DNA of 64,000 bases from Halobaculum sp. MBLA0147 (GTDB lineage Archaea > Halobacteriota > Halobacteria > Halobacteriales > Haloferacaceae), in the NCBI RefSeq assembly GCF_041361345.1, contig NZ_JBGKAD010000001.1, positions 1,116,001-1,180,000 of the forward strand, read 5' to 3'. The translations under genes were made by a program, and so were the position numbers. The notes below the pieces were generated by a model. The model had not been told where the DNA came from. It did no database searches and was given only the letters and a program-made list of their open reading frames with translations. Each line of letters starts with the position of its first letter. Position 1 is the first letter of the stretch. Positions 37,487-48,013 of this stretch are shown piece by piece.

Positions 37487-39934
37487 GTGATAGAGATCGT
37501 CCTGGCCGTCGTCTTCCTGCCGTTCGTGGGGGCGGCGCTGGCCCCGGCAGTGTACAGACTGCTGGGCGAGCGCACCGCCTACTACGCGGCCGGCGTGGCG
37601 GCGATCTGTCTGGCGCTCGTCGGGCGGCTGTACACCGCCGGTGTGGGACTCGACGGCGGCACCCGGTACGCGGTCGAGTGGGTGCCCTCGTTGGGGATCT
37701 CGCTGGCGCTGTACGTCGACGGGCTGGCGTTGTTGATCGCCTTCCTCGCCTCCGGGGTCGGCGTCCTCGTGTTGGTGTACTCCGGGGGGTACATGCACGG
37801 GGAGCCGGGGCAGGCGAAGTACTACGCGACGATGCTGGCGTTCATGGGGTCGATGCTGGGCGTCGCGCTCGCGGGCGACCTGTTCGCGCTGTTCACCTTC
37901 TGGGAGTTGACGAGTCTCTCGTCGTTCCTGTTGATCGGCCACTACACGAGCGCCGACGACTCCCAGTACGCGGCCCGGAAGTCGATGCTGATCACCGTCG
38001 CCGGCGGGCTGTTCATGCTCGCCGGGTTCCTCCTGCTCGGGTGGGCCGGTGGGACGACGCTGATCGCGGGCGAGGGGTCGCTGGTCGCCACGGCGGCGGA
38101 GACGACCGCGACGCTGCGGGCGGCGGGGCTGCTCGTCCCCGCGTTGGTGCTCGTGGGGGTCGGCGCGGCGACGAAGTCCGCGCAGGTGCCGTTCCACGTC
38201 TGGCTGCCGAACGCGATGGAGGCGCCGACGCCGGTGTCGGCGTTCCTCCACTCCGCGACGATGGTGAAGGCCGGCGTCTACCTCCTCGGGCGGTTCCGGC
38301 CGTTCTTCCTCGGCGAGGGGGGCACCGGCACCGCGGCGTTCGAGGCGGCCGAGACCACCGCCGCCGAGACGGCCGCGCTGCTCCCGGAGTGGTCGGTGGT
38401 CGTCCTCTCGCTGGGACTGCTGACGATGACCGTCGCGGCCGTGCTCGCGGTGGCGGCGACGGACATCAAGGAGCTGTTGGCGTACTCGACCGCCTCGCAC
38501 CTCGGGTTGATCGCGGCCGGGTTCGGCGCGGCGAACGCGCTGGGTGCGGAGACGGGCGCGTTCCACGTGCTCAACCACGCGACGTTCAAGGCGACGCTGT
38601 TCCTCGTCGCCGGGATCGTCGCCCACGAGGCCGGTACGCGGCAGATCGACCGGCTGCGTGGGCTGCGCCACGACCTCCCCGTGACGGCGGTGATGGCCGG
38701 GGTCGCGTCGCTGTCGATGGCAGGACTCCCACCGTTCAACGGGTTCTACTCGAAGGAGTTGCTGTTCGAGGCGACCTACGAGGTGGGCCACGCACTCGGC
38801 GGCGCGGCGTGGGTGTTCCCCGTCGTCGCCGTGCTCGGGAGCGTGTTCACCTTCCTCTACTCCGTGAAGTTCCTCTCGCTGTTCCTCGGGGACCGCCCCG
38901 AGGGACTGGGCCACGTCCACCGGCCGCCACTCGCGATGCTCGCGCCGCCGGCCGTCCTGACCGTCCTGGTGGCCGTGATCAGTGTCGACCCGCAGTTGGC
39001 GATCGACGTGCTCGTCGGCGACGTGTACGCCAGCGCGGTGCCGGGGGAGGCACACTCCTTCTCCATCGGGCTGCCGACGAAGCTGAAGCCGGCGGTGATT
39101 ATGAGCGCGATCACCATCGCCGTCGGGGCGGTCCTCTGGCCGCAGTACGACCGGCTCCACCACGGCGTGCGGCGGCTCCTCTCGGGGCCGGTGCGGGCGA
39201 ACTGGTGGTACGACAACGGCGTCGACGGGGTGACGACGAGCGGCCGGCGTGTGGTCGCGTGGGCACAGACGGGGCTCGTCCGGACGTACGCGACGTGGGC
39301 GATGGCCGGGACGGCGGTGCTGGCGCTCGGTGGCTACCTGTTCGCCGCGGCGACGCTGCCGGCCGTCTCCGTTCCCGGCGGAACGACGCCGGCGGTCGTG
39401 TTGGTGTTGCTCGTCGCGGTGATCGGTGCGGCGGCCGTCACCGGCGCGCCGTCGCACGTCGCCGGCGTGCTCACGCTGTCGATCCTCGGGTTCATGGTCG
39501 CGATCTTCTACATCTTGGCGGACGCGCCGGACCTGGCGTTGACGCAGTTGGTCGTCGAGACGCTGGTGCTCGTGATCTTCCTGTTGGTGTTGGACCGGCT
39601 GCCGGCGTTCTACGGCGAGGCGTCGCGGCTGCGGACGCTGCGGGACGGCGCGGTGGCGGCGTTGGTCGGCGGCACCGTGTTCGTCACGGTGGCGCTGTCG
39701 ACGGCGGCGTCGCCGGCCGACCCGCTGGCGGACGTGCTCGTCGAGCGGGCGAACCTCCCGCCGGGCGAGCACGGGGTGTTCTTCACGAACTACGGCGGCG
39801 GGTCGAACGTCGTCAACGTGATCCTGGTCGACCTCCGTGCGACGGACACGCTCGGGGAGATCGCCGTCGTGGCGATGGCCGCACTGGCCGTGTTGACACT
39901 GATCCGGATGCGGACGCGAGGTGAGTCTTCGTGA
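37487..39934 (+). CDS. mrpA: Mrp-type Na+/H+ antiporter subunit A
   Basis: This is the largest subunit of the multisubunit sodium/proton antiporter, related to complex I subunit NuoL/NuoM-like proton channels. It has 815 residues and about 20 membrane helices. Recognisable segments: LVLVYSGGYMHGEPGQAKYYATML, LFALFTFWELTSLSSFLLIGHY with the conserved helix-5 Glu, KSAQVPFHVWLPNAMEAPTPVSAFLHSATMVKAGVYLLGRF, and LNHATFKATLFLVAG with the conserved Lys. The C terminus carries the usual MrpA extension including NYGGGSNVVNVILVDLRATDTLGEIAVV. GTG 37487 heads a seven-gene operon with almost all genes overlapping. Confidence 0.95.
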   Translation: MIEIVLAVVFLPFVGAALAPAVYRLLGERTAYYAAGVAAICLALVGRLYTAGVGLDGGTRYAVEWVPSLGISLALYVDGLALLIAFLASGVGVLVLVYSGGYMHGEPGQAKYYATMLAFMGSMLGVALAGDLFALFTFWELTSLSSFLLIGHYTSADDSQYAARKSMLITVAGGLFMLAGFLLLGWAGGTTLIAGEGSLVATAAETTATLRAAGLLVPALVLVGVGAATKSAQVPFHVWLPNAMEAPTPVSAFLHSATMVKAGVYLLGRFRPFFLGEGGTGTAAFEAAETTAAETAALLPEWSVVVLSLGLLTMTVAAVLAVAATDIKELLAYSTASHLGLIAAGFGAANALGAETGAFHVLNHATFKATLFLVAGIVAHEAGTRQIDRLRGLRHDLPVTAVMAGVASLSMAGLPPFNGFYSKELLFEATYEVGHALGGAAWVFPVVAVLGSVFTFLYSVKFLSLFLGDRPEGLGHVHRPPLAMLAPPAVLTVLVAVISVDPQLAIDVLVGDVYASAVPGEAHSFSIGLPTKLKPAVIMSAITIAVGAVLWPQYDRLHHGVRRLLSGPVRANWWYDNGVDGVTTSGRRVVAWAQTGLVRTYATWAMAGTAVLALGGYLFAAATLPAVSVPGGTTPAVVLVLLVAVIGAAAVTGAPSHVAGVLTLSILGFMVAIFYILADAPDLALTQLVVETLVLVIFLLVLDRLPAFYGEASRLRTLRDGAVAALVGGTVFVTVALSTAASPADPLADVLVERANLPPGEHGVFFTNYGGGSNVVNVILVDLRATDTLGEIAVVAMAALAVLTLIRMRTRGESS

Positions 39935-40608
39935 CGACAGACGACACGACACGGACGACCGCGGGCGTATCGGAACGGGCTACGGAGTCGGACGAGGCGT
40001 CCACCGGACGAGTCGCGGCCGACGGCCGGGCGCCGGCGGGGGCGCCCGACGGCGGGACACCCACTGCCGCGCCCGACGGCGGGACGCCCGCCGGCACGGC
40101 CGACGACGCCGATACGGTCCGGTCGGGCCGCTCCGGACAGGGGTTCGACCTCCGGACGACCGTCATCGCGCGGACCGTCGTCCGGCTGATCGTGCCCATC
40201 GTGATCGTCACGGCACTGGCGCTGTTGTTCCAGGGCCACAACCGCCCGGGCGGCGGGTTCATCGGCGGGGTGTTGACCGTCACCGCCGCGATCCTCGTGT
40301 ACGTGATCTTCGGGGTGGAGTTCCTCCAGTCACAGCTGTTCGACCTCTCGCCGACGGACGGAGAGTCGCACGGACCGACCGGCTGGTACCGGTGGCTGTT
40401 CGCCGGGGGGCTGGCGCTGGCGGCCGGCAGCGGCGCGGTGCCGATCCTGTTCGGGTTGCCGTTCCTCACGCAGGGCGTCGCGTTCCCCCACGGCATCCCG
40501 ATCTACGGGGAGTTGGAGGTGGCCTCGGCGCTCGCGTTCGACCTCGGGGTGTACGGCGTCGTCGTCGGGGGGATCCTCACCGTCGTCGCGGAGGTGGGTG
40601 AGGAATGA
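39931..40608 (+). CDS. mrpB: Mrp antiporter subunit B
   Basis: This 225-residue membrane subunit has about four helices after a 65-residue acidic/Gly/Pro-rich N-terminal region that bacterial MrpB lacks. Family features are LALLFQGHNRPGGGFIGGVLTVTAAILVYVIFG and LTQGVAFPHGIPIYGELEVASALAFDLGVYGVVVGGILTVV. GTG 39931 overlaps the mrpA stop as GTGA, so the pair is probably coupled in translation. Confidence 0.92.
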   Translation: MTTDDTTRTTAGVSERATESDEASTGRVAADGRAPAGAPDGGTPTAAPDGGTPAGTADDADTVRSGRSGQGFDLRTTVIARTVVRLIVPIVIVTALALLFQGHNRPGGGFIGGVLTVTAAILVYVIFGVEFLQSQLFDLSPTDGESHGPTGWYRWLFAGGLALAAGSGAVPILFGLPFLTQGVAFPHGIPIYGELEVASALAFDLGVYGVVVGGILTVVAEVGEE

Positions 40609-40946
40609 CCCAGTGGCTGCTCGCGGGCGTGCTCGGACTGCTGTTCGCACTGGGGACGTTCCTCGTGCTCCGGCGCGACGTTGTCCGGGTCGTGTGGGGC
40701 GTCGCCATCGTCTCGCAGGCCGCGAACGTCTACCTCGTGACGATGGGGGGACTCGTCGGCCCGGCACCCATCGGCGACTTCCGCGGCGAGTTGGGGCCGC
40801 CGACGGACCCGCTCGTCCAGGCGCTGGTGCTCACCGCCATCGTGATCGGGTTCGGCACCACCGCGCTGGCGCTGGTGTTGACCTACCGCGTCTACGAGGA
40901 ACACGGCACCATCGACGTGTACGACCTGGGAGGTGAGGGACTGTGA
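40605..40946 (+). CDS. mrpC: Mrp antiporter subunit C
   Basis: This 113-residue protein has three helices and is homologous to complex I subunit NuoK. It begins MTQWLLAGVLGLLFALGTFLVLRRDVVRVVWG. The helix LVLTAIVIGFGTTALALVLTYRVYEEHGT closes the fold and carries the usual central Glu/Ala pattern only partly. ATG 40605 overlaps the mrpB stop as ATGA, and its stop overlaps mrpD as GTGA. Confidence 0.93.
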   Translation: MTQWLLAGVLGLLFALGTFLVLRRDVVRVVWGVAIVSQAANVYLVTMGGLVGPAPIGDFRGELGPPTDPLVQALVLTAIVIGFGTTALALVLTYRVYEEHGTIDVYDLGGEGL

Positions 40947-42769
40947 CGACCGTCAACGACCCGCTCGTCGTCGCCCCGCTGCTGGTCGCGCTCGGGACGG
41001 CGATCGCGTCGTTGCTGGCGCGGTTCGACCTCCGGGTCGAGCGAGCGGTGAGTCTCGTCGGCGCCGTCGGCTACACCGCGGCGACGCTGCTGTTGTTCGA
41101 GCGCGTGGTGGTCGACGGCAGCGGCGTGTTGCCGTACTACCTCTCGAACTGGCCGGCGCCGTACGGGATCACACTGGTCGCGGACGCACTGTCGGCGTCG
41201 CTGCTCGGGCTGGCGGGTGTGGTGACGCTACCGGCGCTCGTCTTCGCCGTCGTGAACGTCGACGAGTTCGGACAGCGGCTCTCCTTCCACCCGCTGTACC
41301 ACTTCATGGTCGCGGGGGTCTCGGGGGCGTTCCTCACCGGCGACGTGTTCAACCTCTTCGTCTGGTTCGAGGTGATGCTGATGTCGAGTTACGTGCTGGT
41401 GACGTTCTACTCCGGTCCGAAACACACCCGCGCGGCGCTCACCTACGTCGTGTTGAACCTGCTGGGCAGCGCGGTGATGCTCGTCGCCATCGGTGGGCTG
41501 TACGCCACGACGGGGACACTGAACATGGCCGCGATGGCGCGGCGACTCGCGGAGCCGGCCGCCTACGACGTGGCCGTCGCCCCGACGCTGGGGCTCGCGG
41601 CACTCCTGCTCGCGGTGTTCGCGCTGAAGGCGGGGATCGTCCCGTTCCACTTCTGGGTGCCCGCGGCGTACGACGCCGCCCCCGCACCGGTGACGGCGGT
41701 GCTGGCCGGCGCGGTGAAGAAGGTGGGGGTCTACGCCGTGATCCGGCTGTTCTTCACCGTCTTCGCCGCCGCCGAGTACGCGGGTGGGACGGCGCTGGAC
41801 TACGTCGGGCCGGTGTTGCTCGCGACCGGCGCCGCCTCCGCGGTGTACGGCGGCCTCGCGGCCGTCGGACGCGACCGCGTCGAGGAACTGCTGGCGTTCT
41901 CCTCGGTCGCACAGATCGGGTTCGTCGTCGTCCCGCTGGGCGTCGCCGCGCTGGCACCCGCCGCCGCCGTGCCGGAGACGGTGCCCGGCGAGACGCTGGC
42001 GGCGTTCGGCGTCGCGGCGGCGTTGGTGTACTCGTTCAACCACGCGGTCGCGAAGGGCCTGTTGTTCCTCGTCGCCGGGACGCTCGCGGACGCCGTCGGC
42101 TCCACGCGGTTCGCGGATCTGGGCGGGCTCGCCCGCCGGACCCCGGTGCTCGCGACGGCGTTCCTGCTCGGCGGCCTGTCGCTGATCGGCGTCCCGCCGC
42201 TGATCGGCTTCTTCGGGAAACTGCTCGTGTTCCGCGTCTCCGTCGTCGCCGGGGCGGTCGGTGCCGGGACGGCGGCGACACTCGCGTGGCTCGGACTCGC
42301 GGCGACACTGCTCGGTGCGGTGTTCACCATCGCGTACGTCACTCGCGCCTGGAACGCGGTCTTCTGGGGCGAGCCGTCGACGCTCGTCGAGACGGCCGTC
42401 CCCGAGCGGTGGGCGGCCGGGCGGCGAGAGCCGACGGCCACCGCCGCGGACGGCGGCGAGTCCGCGGGCGCGACGGCGGAGGCGGCAGGGGCAGCGGGCG
42501 ACGACCACGCGGGCGCGGACGCCGACGCCGGCGGGAGCGTCGCGACGGCGAGTCGGACGACGCTGGCCGTCGAGACGGTCGTGGTGGCGACGCTGGCGGT
42601 GTCGCTGGTCGGACTCGGCCTCGGCGCAGACGTGATCGTCGACGCCGCCGCCGCGGCCGGCGAGGCGGCGACGGACACGACCGGCTACGTCGAGGCGGTC
42701 GTACCGGAGGGTGGTGTCGACGGCGTGCCGGCCGACGAGACGGCCGCGGCCGACGGGGGTGACGGCTGA
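40943..42769 (+). CDS. mrpD: Mrp antiporter subunit D
   Basis: This second NuoM/NuoN-like proton channel subunit has 608 residues and about 14 helices. It shows LFVWFEVMLMSSYVLVTFY with the conserved Glu in helix 5, GIVPFHFWVPAAYDAAPAPVTAVLAGAVKKVGVYAVIRLFF, and FNHAVAKGLLFLVAGTLAD with the conserved Lys. After about residue 490 it carries an Ala/Gly/Asp-rich loop, then one further helix and a disordered tail, more than a bacterial MrpD has. GTG 40943 overlaps mrpC by four bases. Confidence 0.93.
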   Translation: MTTVNDPLVVAPLLVALGTAIASLLARFDLRVERAVSLVGAVGYTAATLLLFERVVVDGSGVLPYYLSNWPAPYGITLVADALSASLLGLAGVVTLPALVFAVVNVDEFGQRLSFHPLYHFMVAGVSGAFLTGDVFNLFVWFEVMLMSSYVLVTFYSGPKHTRAALTYVVLNLLGSAVMLVAIGGLYATTGTLNMAAMARRLAEPAAYDVAVAPTLGLAALLLAVFALKAGIVPFHFWVPAAYDAAPAPVTAVLAGAVKKVGVYAVIRLFFTVFAAAEYAGGTALDYVGPVLLATGAASAVYGGLAAVGRDRVEELLAFSSVAQIGFVVVPLGVAALAPAAAVPETVPGETLAAFGVAAALVYSFNHAVAKGLLFLVAGTLADAVGSTRFADLGGLARRTPVLATAFLLGGLSLIGVPPLIGFFGKLLVFRVSVVAGAVGAGTAATLAWLGLAATLLGAVFTIAYVTRAWNAVFWGEPSTLVETAVPERWAAGRREPTATAADGGESAGATAEAAGAAGDDHAGADADAGGSVATASRTTLAVETVVVATLAVSLVGLGLGADVIVDAAAAAGEAATDTTGYVEAVVPEGGVDGVPADETAAADGGDG

Positions 42770-43440
42770 TGCGTCGCTGGCTCGTCAACGGCCTCCTGCT
42801 GGCCGTGTTGTGGCTGTTCGTCCGCGGCGTCCCCGTGTCGCCGCCGGTCCGGCTGGTCGAGGAGGGACTGATCGGCCTCGGTGTCGGCCTCCCCGTCGCG
42901 TACGGCCTCCGGCGGTTCTACGGGGAACAGGTCACCGAGCGGACGCTGCGAGTCGCGCCGGCAGCGGCGCTGTACGTGGCGACGTTCCTGAAGGAGCTGC
43001 TCGTCGCGAACCTCGCCGTGGCGCGGATCGTGTTGTCGCCGTCGCTGCCGATCCGGCCGGACGTGGTGGCGGTGCCGCTGCGGGTGCGGTCGGACGCGGC
43101 GATCACCACCATCGCCAACAGTATCACGCTCACGCCGGGGACACTCACGATGGACTACGACGCCGAGACCAACACGCTGTACGTCCACAGTATCGACCTC
43201 GAAGACGCCGCCGACCTGCTGGACACGATCCGGACCTGGGAGGACTACGCGCTGGCGATCTTCGACGAAGACCTGAAACCCGGTGACCCCGTCCCCGAAC
43301 GCGAGGGTGCCACCGACGGCGGTCGACCGGTCGGGGACGACACGACGGACGGTGAGTCCGCCGACAGTCGGGCCACGGACGGCGGCGCCACGCCGGACGA
43401 CTCACACGACGCGGCCGACGGAGGTGAGACGGATGGCTGA
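42769..43440 (+). CDS. mrpE: Mrp antiporter subunit E
   Basis: This 223-residue subunit of the antiporter has two or three N-terminal helices, then the conserved PAAALYVATFLKELLVANLAVARIVLSPSLPIRPDVV. The soluble domain AAITTIANSITLTPGTLTMDYDAETNTLYVHSID is the MrpE hallmark. Residues after about 165 are a 58-residue acidic Asp/Gly/Thr tail. ATG 42769 shares its A with the mrpD stop (TGATG). Its own 3' end overlaps the start of mrpF by eight bases. Confidence 0.92.
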   Translation: MRRWLVNGLLLAVLWLFVRGVPVSPPVRLVEEGLIGLGVGLPVAYGLRRFYGEQVTERTLRVAPAAALYVATFLKELLVANLAVARIVLSPSLPIRPDVVAVPLRVRSDAAITTIANSITLTPGTLTMDYDAETNTLYVHSIDLEDAADLLDTIRTWEDYALAIFDEDLKPGDPVPEREGATDGGRPVGDDTTDGESADSRATDGGATPDDSHDAADGGETDG

Positions 43441-43729
43441 TCCGTTGCCGGGGCCGGTGAGTCTGGAACTCCTCTTGACCGCGGCGCTGGCGCTGTCGGC
43501 GCTGTTGACGCTCGTCGCGAGCTACCGGGTGATCGTCGGGCCGACGACGCCGGATCGCGTGGTCGCGCTCGACACCATCGGGACGAACGTCGTCGCGGTC
43601 GCCGTCGTCTACGCGATGGCGAGCGGTCGGGGGTACTTCCTCGACGTGGGGCTCGTCTTGGCGATCATCGGCTTCATCAGCACCGTCACCGTGGCGCGGT
43701 ACGTCACGGAGGGGGACATCGTCGAATGA
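43433..43729 (+). CDS. mrpF: Mrp antiporter subunit F
   Basis: This 98-residue membrane protein has three helices. The phrase LVASYRVIVGPTTPDRVVALDTIGTNVVAVAVVYAM is diagnostic for MrpF, and LVLAIIGFISTVTVARYVT ends the fold. ATG 43433 lies within the end of mrpE. The stop TGA at 43727-43729 overlaps an ATG (43726) that opens a small ORF leading to mrpG. Confidence 0.94.
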   Translation: MADPLPGPVSLELLLTAALALSALLTLVASYRVIVGPTTPDRVVALDTIGTNVVAVAVVYAMASGRGYFLDVGLVLAIIGFISTVTVARYVTEGDIVE

Positions 43730-43854
43730 CACGACACACACACTGCGATCGAGGGAGTCGTCGGGACGGAGCCACGGACACGGGCACGGACACAGACACG
43801 GACACGGCGGGGACACCGGCGAGAACCGCCACACTCACCGGAGGTGGTCGCTGA
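43726..43854 (+). CDS. 42-codon ORF bridging mrpF and mrpG
   Basis: An ATG at 43726 overlaps the mrpF stop as ATGA. The ORF runs 42 codons without interruption to a TGA at 43852-43854, which shares its A with the mrpG ATG (TGATG). The product MTRHTHCDRGSRRDGATDTG... is basic at its start and then a Thr/Asp/Gly repeat (DTGTDTDTDT), hydrophilic and without a fold signal. GGAGG-like purines precede both starts. In most Mrp operons mrpF and mrpG are adjacent or overlap, so a dedicated coupled ORF is unusual. It may be translated only to carry ribosomes across the 125-base gap. Confidence 0.55.
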   Translation: MTRHTHCDRGSRRDGATDTGTDTDTDTAGTPARTATLTGGGR

Positions 43855-44240
43855 TGGCGGGGGGAGGCGTCGAGACCGCCCCACCCGGTCTCCTCGGGGC
43901 GGTGTTGATCGTCGTGTTGCTCGCCGTCGGCGCGTTGTTCCTCGTCTCGGGGACCGTCGGGCTCGTGCGACTGCCGAACGTCTACAACCGGCTGCACGCC
44001 ACCTCGAAGGCGACGACGCTCGGTGCGGCGTCGATGGCGCTGGCGGCGTGGGTGTACTTCGGCCCCGCCGGCAACGGCCTGAAGGCGCTCGTGACGGTGT
44101 TCTTCCTCTTCGTCACAGCCCCGACCGGCGGTCACCTGATCTCGCGGGCGGCCGAACGGATGGGCGTCGAGTTCGAACCGGGCGTCACCTGGCCGGGCGA
44201 CGACGACGTGGAGTCCGGGCCGCCCGCCGACGGCGACTGA
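43854..44240 (+). CDS. mrpG: Mrp antiporter subunit G
   Basis: This 128-residue subunit has three helices. VGALFLVSGTVGLVRLPNVYNRLHATSKATTLG is the MrpG signature, followed by LVTVFFLFVTAPTGGHLISRAAERMG. A GGAGGTGG Shine-Dalgarno-like run lies just upstream inside the bridging ORF. It completes the A-to-G set, so the operon can encode a full Mrp complex that exchanges sodium for protons across the membrane. Confidence 0.94.
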   Translation: MAGGGVETAPPGLLGAVLIVVLLAVGALFLVSGTVGLVRLPNVYNRLHATSKATTLGAASMALAAWVYFGPAGNGLKALVTVFFLFVTAPTGGHLISRAAERMGVEFEPGVTWPGDDDVESGPPADGD

Positions 44241-47256: not shown

Positions 47257-47922
47257 CTACGACCCGCTGCGGTAGCGATCCAACCGCGCCGCCACCTCGC
47301 CGGAGAGGTCCGTGAGGTGGGCCGTCCCGTACAGGCCGACGGCGACGCCGCCGACCAGGTCGAACAGCAGGTCGAGCATCGTGTCGCCGAGGCCGTACTG
47401 CGTCAACACCTGTCCGGAGCCGGTGAGCGAGGAGAGGCCACCGAGCGCGAACTCGATCACCTCCCAGAAGACGCCGAAGGCGGCGACGAAGACGACGACG
47501 AAGACGAACGTGAACCGCGGCGGGAGGGAGATCGACTCCGTGTGTTCGTCGATCCCGCGGACGACGGTGTAGCCGACGCCGGCGACGACGGACGACGACA
47601 GCGCGTGGGTGAGGTGGTCCCACCACCAGAGGTCGCGGTAGAAACTCCCCTCGGTACCGGGGATGCCGACGACGCCGAAGGCGTGGAGGAAGACGGCGGC
47701 GGTGATCCACAGCGTCAACCCGGCGTCCATCGGCACCTCGTAGTCGCGTTCGAGGATCGCCGGGACGTACGTCACCGCCAGCGCGACGCCGGCGTTGACG
47801 ACGATCCCGAGACTCCGCCGGTCGAGCCCGATGAACACGATTCCCACCAGCGCCAACTGCATCGCCCGGGACAGCTGCCGCTGGCGACGTGGCGAGACCC
47901 CGAGGCGGTCGCGAACTCTCAC
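47257..47922 (-). CDS. YjdF/DUF2238-like membrane protein
   Basis: This integral membrane protein of 221 residues has about six helices. The motif WWWDHLTHALSSSVVAGVGYTVVRG, then FGVFWEVIEFALGG and YGLGDTMLDLLFDLVGGVAVGL, is the conserved core of the DUF2238 family; the aligned Asp/His/Glu suggest a site within the membrane, but the function is unknown. GTG 47922 overlaps the stop of the short ORF at 47919-47966 as GTGA, with GGAGGTGGTGG just before it. It forms a coupled unit with the 48010 gene. Confidence 0.8.
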   Translation of the reverse strand: MRVRDRLGVSPRRQRQLSRAMQLALVGIVFIGLDRRSLGIVVNAGVALAVTYVPAILERDYEVPMDAGLTLWITAAVFLHAFGVVGIPGTEGSFYRDLWWWDHLTHALSSSVVAGVGYTVVRGIDEHTESISLPPRFTFVFVVVFVAAFGVFWEVIEFALGGLSSLTGSGQVLTQYGLGDTMLDLLFDLVGGVAVGLYGTAHLTDLSGEVAARLDRYRSGS

Positions 47923-47966
47923 GCCACCACCTCCACTCGTGGGCGGGAGAACGGGAGACGACTCAC
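47919..47966 (-). CDS. Relay ORF 2, 15 codons
   Basis: On the minus strand a GTG at 47966-47964 overlaps the stop of relay ORF 1 as GTGA. The peptide is MSRLPFSRPRVEVVA, then TGA at 47921-47919 overlaps the YjdF-like GTG at 47922. It repeats relay ORF 1 with changes at three middle positions and at the end. GGAGGTGGTG lies 5-7 bases before its start. It is too short for a folded product; a coupling role in translation is more likely. Confidence 0.5.
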   Translation of the reverse strand: MSRLPFSRPRVEVVA

Positions 47967-48013
47967 GACTCCACCACCTCCACCCGTTGGCGAGAGGACG
48001 GGAGACGACTCAC
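47963..48013 (-). CDS. Relay ORF 1, 16 codons
   Basis: The GTG at 48013-48011 overlaps the stop of the upstream membrane-protein gene (TCGTGA) as GTGA. The peptide is MSRLPSSRQRVEVVES, ending TGA at 47965-47963, which overlaps relay ORF 2. Its last residues, EVVES, repeat the end of the upstream protein. This ORF arises from a 31-base direct repeat (47951-47981 and 47998-48028) that carries both the Shine-Dalgarno-like GGAGGTGGTGG and the stop/start overlap. Confidence 0.5.
   Translation of the reverse strand: MSRLPSSRQRVEVVES

Follow-up and report, generated by a model that had tools for sequence, protein, structure and literature searches.

The mrp operon of Halobaculum sp. MBLA0147 raises the question of how mrpG is translated together with mrpF when a spacer separates the two genes. 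Mrp is a multi-subunit complex. In the window, i.e. the whole 64,000-nucleotide stretch of DNA analysed here, the mrpF stop and the mrpG start lie 124 nt apart, and an open reading frame (ORF) of 42 codons runs from one to the other. An earlier note on this DNA proposed that the ORF specifies an eighth, subunit-associated microprotein or else acts as a translated bridge. From the comparison of haloarchaeal mrpF-mrpG junctions described below, we consider it likely that the ORF is a translated bridge linking mrpF to mrpG.

The mrpF-mrpG junction in the window

The features of the locus, all on the plus strand, are as follows.

39931..43440, +, mrpB-C-D-E, each gene overlapping the next, after mrpA (end 39934) (ORFs, Pfam)
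43433..43729, +, mrpF, 98 aa, the upstream partner (Pfam MrpF_PhaF, E 2.9e-19; sequence)
43727-43729, +, mrpF stop codon TGA (sequence)
43726..43854, +, candidate bridge ORF, 42 codons, at -4 (ATGA) to mrpF and -1 (TGATG) to mrpG (sequence; like architecture in relatives)
43773..43807, +, run of the hexamer CACGGA, 5.8 copies, encoding a Thr/Asp/Gly repeat (repeat in sequence)
43840..43846, +, SD-like GGAGGTG for mrpG, within the 3' end of the bridge ORF (sequence; SD counts)
43854..44240, +, mrpG, 128 aa, the downstream partner (Pfam PhaG_MnhG_YufB, E 2.3e-25)

The ATG of the bridge ORF (43726-43728) shares ATGA with the mrpF stop (overlap -4), and its stop TGA (43852-43854) shares TGATG with the mrpG ATG (43854-43856; overlap -1), in agreement with the architecture and length described in the earlier note. 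Stop/start overlaps of the type that marks termination-reinitiation (-4 or -1) are thus present at both ends of the ORF, and the flanking genes, identified by Pfam, encode partners within one heteromeric complex. The other mrp junctions of the window, from mrpA/B through mrpE/F, all overlap directly, by 1 to 8 nt (A/B, GTGA at 39931; B/C, ATGA at 40605; C/D, GTGA at 40943; D/E, TGATG at 42769; E/F, 8 nt at 43433). The mrpF/mrpG junction is therefore, as had been noted, the only one here with an inserted ORF.

The product of the ORF, MTRHTHCDRGSRRDGATDTGTDTDTDTAGTPARTATLTGGGR (42 aa), has a basic part followed by a Thr/Asp part. Its description as a peptide without a membrane helix was confirmed: no hydrophobic stretch was seen in it by inspection, and it had no match in the Pfam search, in which mrpB, C, D, E, F and G each matched a family. 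The family match and membrane helices of an Mrp subunit are both missing from it. The period of the CACGGA run is a multiple of three, so that growth of the repeat leaves the frame intact.

Elsewhere in the operon, the Pfam domain of MrpE stops at residue 162 of 223 and is followed by a long C-terminal tail (window 43250-43440) that is hydrophilic, acidic and repeat-like. At its N-terminus, MrpB has a comparable hydrophilic extension.

In H. volcanii, gaps of 22-23 nt have been reported to abolish termination-reinitiation at three gene pairs, and in E. coli the last 15 nt of the upstream gene are reported to suffice (PMC10666635). Removal of the SD sequence in H. volcanii is reported to alter reinitiation variably, upward in one of seven pairs, and never to abolish it (PMC6728339). 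Since a gap removes reinitiation in H. volcanii, a bridge from the mrpF stop to the mrpG start would restore it. In the proposed mechanism, a ribosome finishing mrpF would reinitiate at the overlapping ATG of the bridge ORF, read its 42 codons, stop in TGATG and reinitiate there on mrpG, aided by the SD within the bridge ORF. In this way mrpG would stay coupled to mrpF over a 124-nt gap that would otherwise break the coupling, and the output of MrpG would depend on the bridge. Selection would act on the open frame and the two junctions, not on the peptide. Among the points against the bridge, SD-like sites could permit de novo initiation at mrpG, and ORF starts at +7 or +8 would couple less well than -4 overlaps.

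Bridging ORFs at haloarchaeal mrpF-mrpG junctions

Searches with MrpG were carried out in the window genus (4 genomes, 3 matched), the family (170 genomes, 42 matched at E 1e-20) and the order (392 genomes, 176 matched at E 1e-25). A DNA search with mrpF-mrpG covered 60 relatives (46 matched), and 52 loci were sampled from named genome contigs. Forty-five methanogen, bacterial or Thermococcus loci (L068-L112) were dropped before the first count, and L139 and L321 were dropped as no mrpF-mrpG pair was found in them. The first set consisted of 198 haloarchaeal loci, 197 with the pair, of which 178 were distinct after removal of same-genome duplicates. A hold-out set was drawn from 32 unread genomes of the order search, from 18 genomes in the genus of G222, from 146 genomes (63 matched) in the family of G397 and from 14 stretches, and was scored with the rule fixed. 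Of its 71 loci, 70 had the pair; 17 of these 70 repeated earlier loci and were removed likewise, leaving 53 new ones. For mrpG, a start codon lying -12 to +2 from the mrpF stop was used where present; otherwise the first ATG after that stop was chosen or, where there was no ATG, another start codon.

Of the junctions in the first set, 140 were direct, the offset being -4 in 119; gaps measured 3-11 nt in three and 22-275 nt in 34, and one junction was unclear (L140, in which the mrpF end was not found and which was left out of the trees). The hold-out contributed 41 direct junctions and 12 gaps. Over all sets, 181 of the 231 distinct haloarchaeal junctions were overlapping or at most 2 nt apart, with three gaps of 3-11 nt, 46 gaps of 22-275 nt and the one unclear case. 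The mrpE/mrpF junction was overlapping or abutting in 177 of 178 loci of the first set; gaps are thus characteristic of mrpF/mrpG.

A gap was scored as bridged if an ORF started at -4 to +8 of the mrpF stop and ended at -2 to +7 of the mrpG start. These limits were chosen after the first loci had been seen, and therefore the 12 hold-out gaps alone are free of that bias. Bridges were found in 33 of the 34 gaps of the first set, with 8.7 expected from spacer shuffles. In the exception, L155, an ORF of 19 codons runs 13 nt into mrpG; with the limit widened to +13 after L155 had been seen, the score becomes 34 of 34 with 9.2 expected. In the hold-out, 11 of 12 gaps were bridged, with 6.0 expected from shuffles (P(>=11) 4.4e-7, kinship not taken into account); in the remaining gap, that of L278, the ORF starts at -4 and stops 8 nt before mrpG. 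Both exceptions were retained in the counts. At the original limits, a bridging ORF was present in 44 of the 46 gaps of at least 22 nt over all sets, and the other two miss by a few nucleotides. The bridge half of the earlier proposal is well supported by these counts, those of the hold-out included.

As a control, same-strand gaps of 22-300 nt were collected from the window and 400 kb of the same genome; genes were called with a simple codon-score finder, and their starts were chosen by the rule given above. Bridges were scored in 14 of 111 gaps at the +13 limit (11.3 expected) and in 11 of 111 at the +7 limit; an earlier control that chose starts differently scored 10 of 128, mrpF-mrpG itself included. 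As control gaps are bridged at chance level, bridging is no general property of the gaps of this genome. The bridge frame was open in all 31 mrpF-mrpG gaps of at least 50 nt, against 63 of 100 control gaps (50-300 nt, same genome). An open frame by itself is weak evidence, being too frequent among control gaps, and was discarded as a sole argument; the double junction is the signal. Dinucleotide-preserving shuffles of the window spacer reproduce the double junction in 5-7%. Some bridges end inside mrpG (+4, +7), with the stop wholly or partly in mrpG, and are therefore easy to obtain by chance; the shuffle probability is 0.6-1.0 for several junctions.

Two candidate hallmarks of bridged junctions were rejected. 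SD-like sites were seen at 31 of 34 bridged and 81 of 143 direct junctions, too modest a contrast for a strong SD to qualify. The first 34 bridges were all in one frame relative to mrpG, but this rule was broken by the hold-out, in which L270, L277 and L294 end at -1 in a different frame.

One control gap, of 112 nt (L247, own genome, C1:520001-540000), is spanned by a 38-codon ORF whose end lies at a GGGAGGTGATG start. This may be a further bridge, although shuffles give it a probability of 0.8.

On a tree built from 177 mrpF+mrpG pairs, bridged junctions were found mainly in the window genus (3/3), in a pair in family f3 and in a large clade distributed over several families. Most of the gapped junctions fall in this one clade and so are not independent of each other. 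The tree of 230 junctions, hold-out included, has at least 10 changes of state, and bridges are present in 21 of 78 genera and in 8 families. In the window genus, the spacers of the three genomes with a match (3/3) measure 91, 124 and 275 nt and barely align with one another. Each is bridged, and the product of their three shuffle probabilities is 4.7e-5. The closest junctions outside this genus (g16, g5, g19) are directly coupled, so that the bridge of the window genus was probably gained independently; it probably derives from a directly coupled ancestor. Within the large clade, the bridges of g8, g10, g22 and g25 end in TGATG. In g13 the former stop reads CGA (CAA in one case), i.e. CGATGA or CAATGA, and the replacement stop one codon later overlaps the mrpG start as ATGA.

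The large clade represents a distinct mrpF-mrpG subtype that occurs in several families and on a plasmid of Halostagnicola larsenii XH-48; this distribution is suggestive of horizontal operon transfer. The annotation of the Halostagnicola larsenii plasmid NZ_CP007059.1 uses the same mrpG start, and its gene table, which is incomplete, lists no gene in the 103-nt mrpF-mrpG gap.

Constraint on the peptide and alternative explanations

The ORF could instead encode a functional microprotein of the Mrp complex, such as an eighth subunit, a chaperone or a metal-sensing peptide. Relatives in the large clade do share a short peptide, M-x-[HYS]-x-H...GGDR(R), and His accounts for 7.0% in the bridge frame against at most 3.7% in the other frames; the GGDR end, however, is the SD sequence read in that frame. 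The pN/pS of the bridges in six groups was 0.76, 0.71, 0.73, 1.68, 0.79 and 0.83, while in the corresponding pairs mrpF gave 0-0.19 and mrpG 0.12-0.29. The bridge values, near 0.75, were not below those of codon-permuted alignments (untrimmed, three groups, p 0.31, 0.14 and 0.35; trimmed, two of the three, p 0.40 and 0.28). The purifying selection on amino acids expected of a conserved microprotein gene was thus not detected. The bridges are 7 to 89 residues long, and even within a genus there is little conservation of sequence or length. Apart from having no Pfam match, the window ORF is not gene-like in its codon use, with a score of -0.21 per codon against +0.36 for mrpF and +0.33 for mrpG, and with G+C of 0.62, 0.76 and 0.64 at the three codon positions. 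In addition, mrpG occurs without the segment in 181 of 231 junctions, whereas a subunit should be retained wherever the operon is kept. Relatives that keep mrpG but lack the segment were named in the earlier note as evidence against its proposal, and the subunit half of that proposal is not supported. As the ORF is mostly absent and the peptides are near neutral, the microprotein was rejected as the main reading and is considered unlikely.

The conserved element is the frame with its two joints, not the peptide. In L003 the spacer has grown by 21-nt repeats with the frame kept, and the indels that separate L166 from L184, 27 and 12 nt long, are both multiples of three. The frames of the bridges relative to mrpF are mixed (19, 13 and 2 of 34), by which a frameshift extension of MrpF is excluded.

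In one mrp subtype (L023, L054-L060, L133-L138, L183, L202), the bridge peptide begins M-x-[HYS]-x-H and the short tail of mrpF codes an SD-like GGAGTGA that includes the stop. The recurrent His-rich start (MxHxH) in the large clade may reflect some constraint on the peptide.

It could also be argued that the spacer is untranslated and the double overlap a coincidence in GC-rich, stop-poor DNA. The frequency of open frames in control gaps (63/100) and the low codon score of the window ORF are compatible with this explanation, but bridging of 44/46 gaps against the chance level of 14/111 in the control, the 11/12 of the hold-out and the recurrence from independent origins speak against it, and we regard coincidence as quite improbable. 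Alternatively, the ORF could be a regulatory uORF, its translation unfolding or sensing something by which mrpG is controlled. A model would be Salmonella mgtQ, which has 8 codons, lies between two operon genes and is reported to promote translation of the second (PMC8092293). mgtQ works through an inhibitory stem-loop. By a single fold score the spacer RNA was no more structured than shuffles (z -0.19 for 181 nt), and no common peptide or stall motif is seen across origins. Such a regulatory role is considered very improbable. An internal promoter or RNA structure was rejected on the same fold score and on the lack of a promoter match in a bacterial-type scan, which does not cover archaeal promoters. 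A longer mrpG was rejected too, since no ATG, GTG or TTG lies upstream in the open frame and the ATG is common to the genus. The translated bridge is well supported by the comparison, with translation of the ORF itself predicted from its layout.

Known coupling systems and a second locus at 48 kb

The phenomenon belongs to a kind already known from translational coupling, ribosome-delivering short ORFs, MIRU inserts and the mgtQ uORF. The termination-reinitiation pairs of Huber et al. (2019, PMC6728339; 2023, PMC10666635), as reported, resemble the present case in their ATGA/TGATG overlaps, in the SD within the upstream ORF and in encoding subunits of one complex. They differ in being two real genes, whereas here a near-neutral mini-ORF would convey the coupling over a gap; the main text of PMC10666635 makes no mention of small ORF, uORF, unannotated or intervening. 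MIRUs (mycobacterial interspersed repetitive units, PMC12548453) likewise are reported to contain a short intergenic ORF at -4 to the next gene, a coupling that lets the insert leave expression undisturbed, as is proposed here. MIRUs, however, are dispersed, seemingly mobile repeats, and the window spacer is not: among the own-genome matches listed, a single one, of 33 nt, touches the spacer, in the hexamer run. Bridges of different lineages, moreover, have no sequence family in common. mgtQ is likewise a tiny operon ORF whose translation favours the next gene, but it is reported to act by ribosome destabilisation and stem-loop release (PMC8092293), and no such structure was indicated by the fold score here; no overlap chain at mgtQ appears in the abstract or outline of that paper. 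Searches of open-licence full texts did not turn up a recurrent, sequence-free bridge rebuilt at one operon joint, and those directed at haloarchaeal Mrp operons yielded nothing on such an ORF.

The comparison over 8 haloarchaeal families provides evidence that selection maintains the coupling of mrpF to mrpG. If the ORFs are bridges, a translated path would be rebuilt whenever the genes separate, in line with reporter assays showing no scanning over gaps by archaeal ribosomes. Some of the short operon ORFs seen in ribosome profiling may accordingly be ribosome carriers and not microproteins, for which conserved junctions combined with a neutral peptide offer a computable test.

A further arrangement of this type is present in the window:

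47919..48013, -, two tandem mini-ORFs (48013-47963 and 47966-47919) chained by GTGA overlaps (sequence; genus comparison)

This is probably the 48-kb case alluded to in the earlier note. The mini-ORFs, of 16 and 15 codons, are near-copies spaced 47 nt, and join a gene ending at 48010 to a gene starting at 47922 on the minus strand. In the other three genomes of the genus (G001, G002, G003) this gene pair is joined directly by GTGA. The bridge at this locus appears to be specific to the lineage and to have arisen when a coupled joint was duplicated in tandem, which illustrates one way for bridges to originate. It is possible, and suggested here tentatively, that bridge cistrons form a general class in haloarchaeal operons, i.e. 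mini-ORFs with a near-free peptide that arise from repeat growth or tandem duplication of a coupled junction and are kept solely as ribosome carriers across an insert between genes whose translation must remain coupled. The 48-kb locus would then be a second case, caught young.
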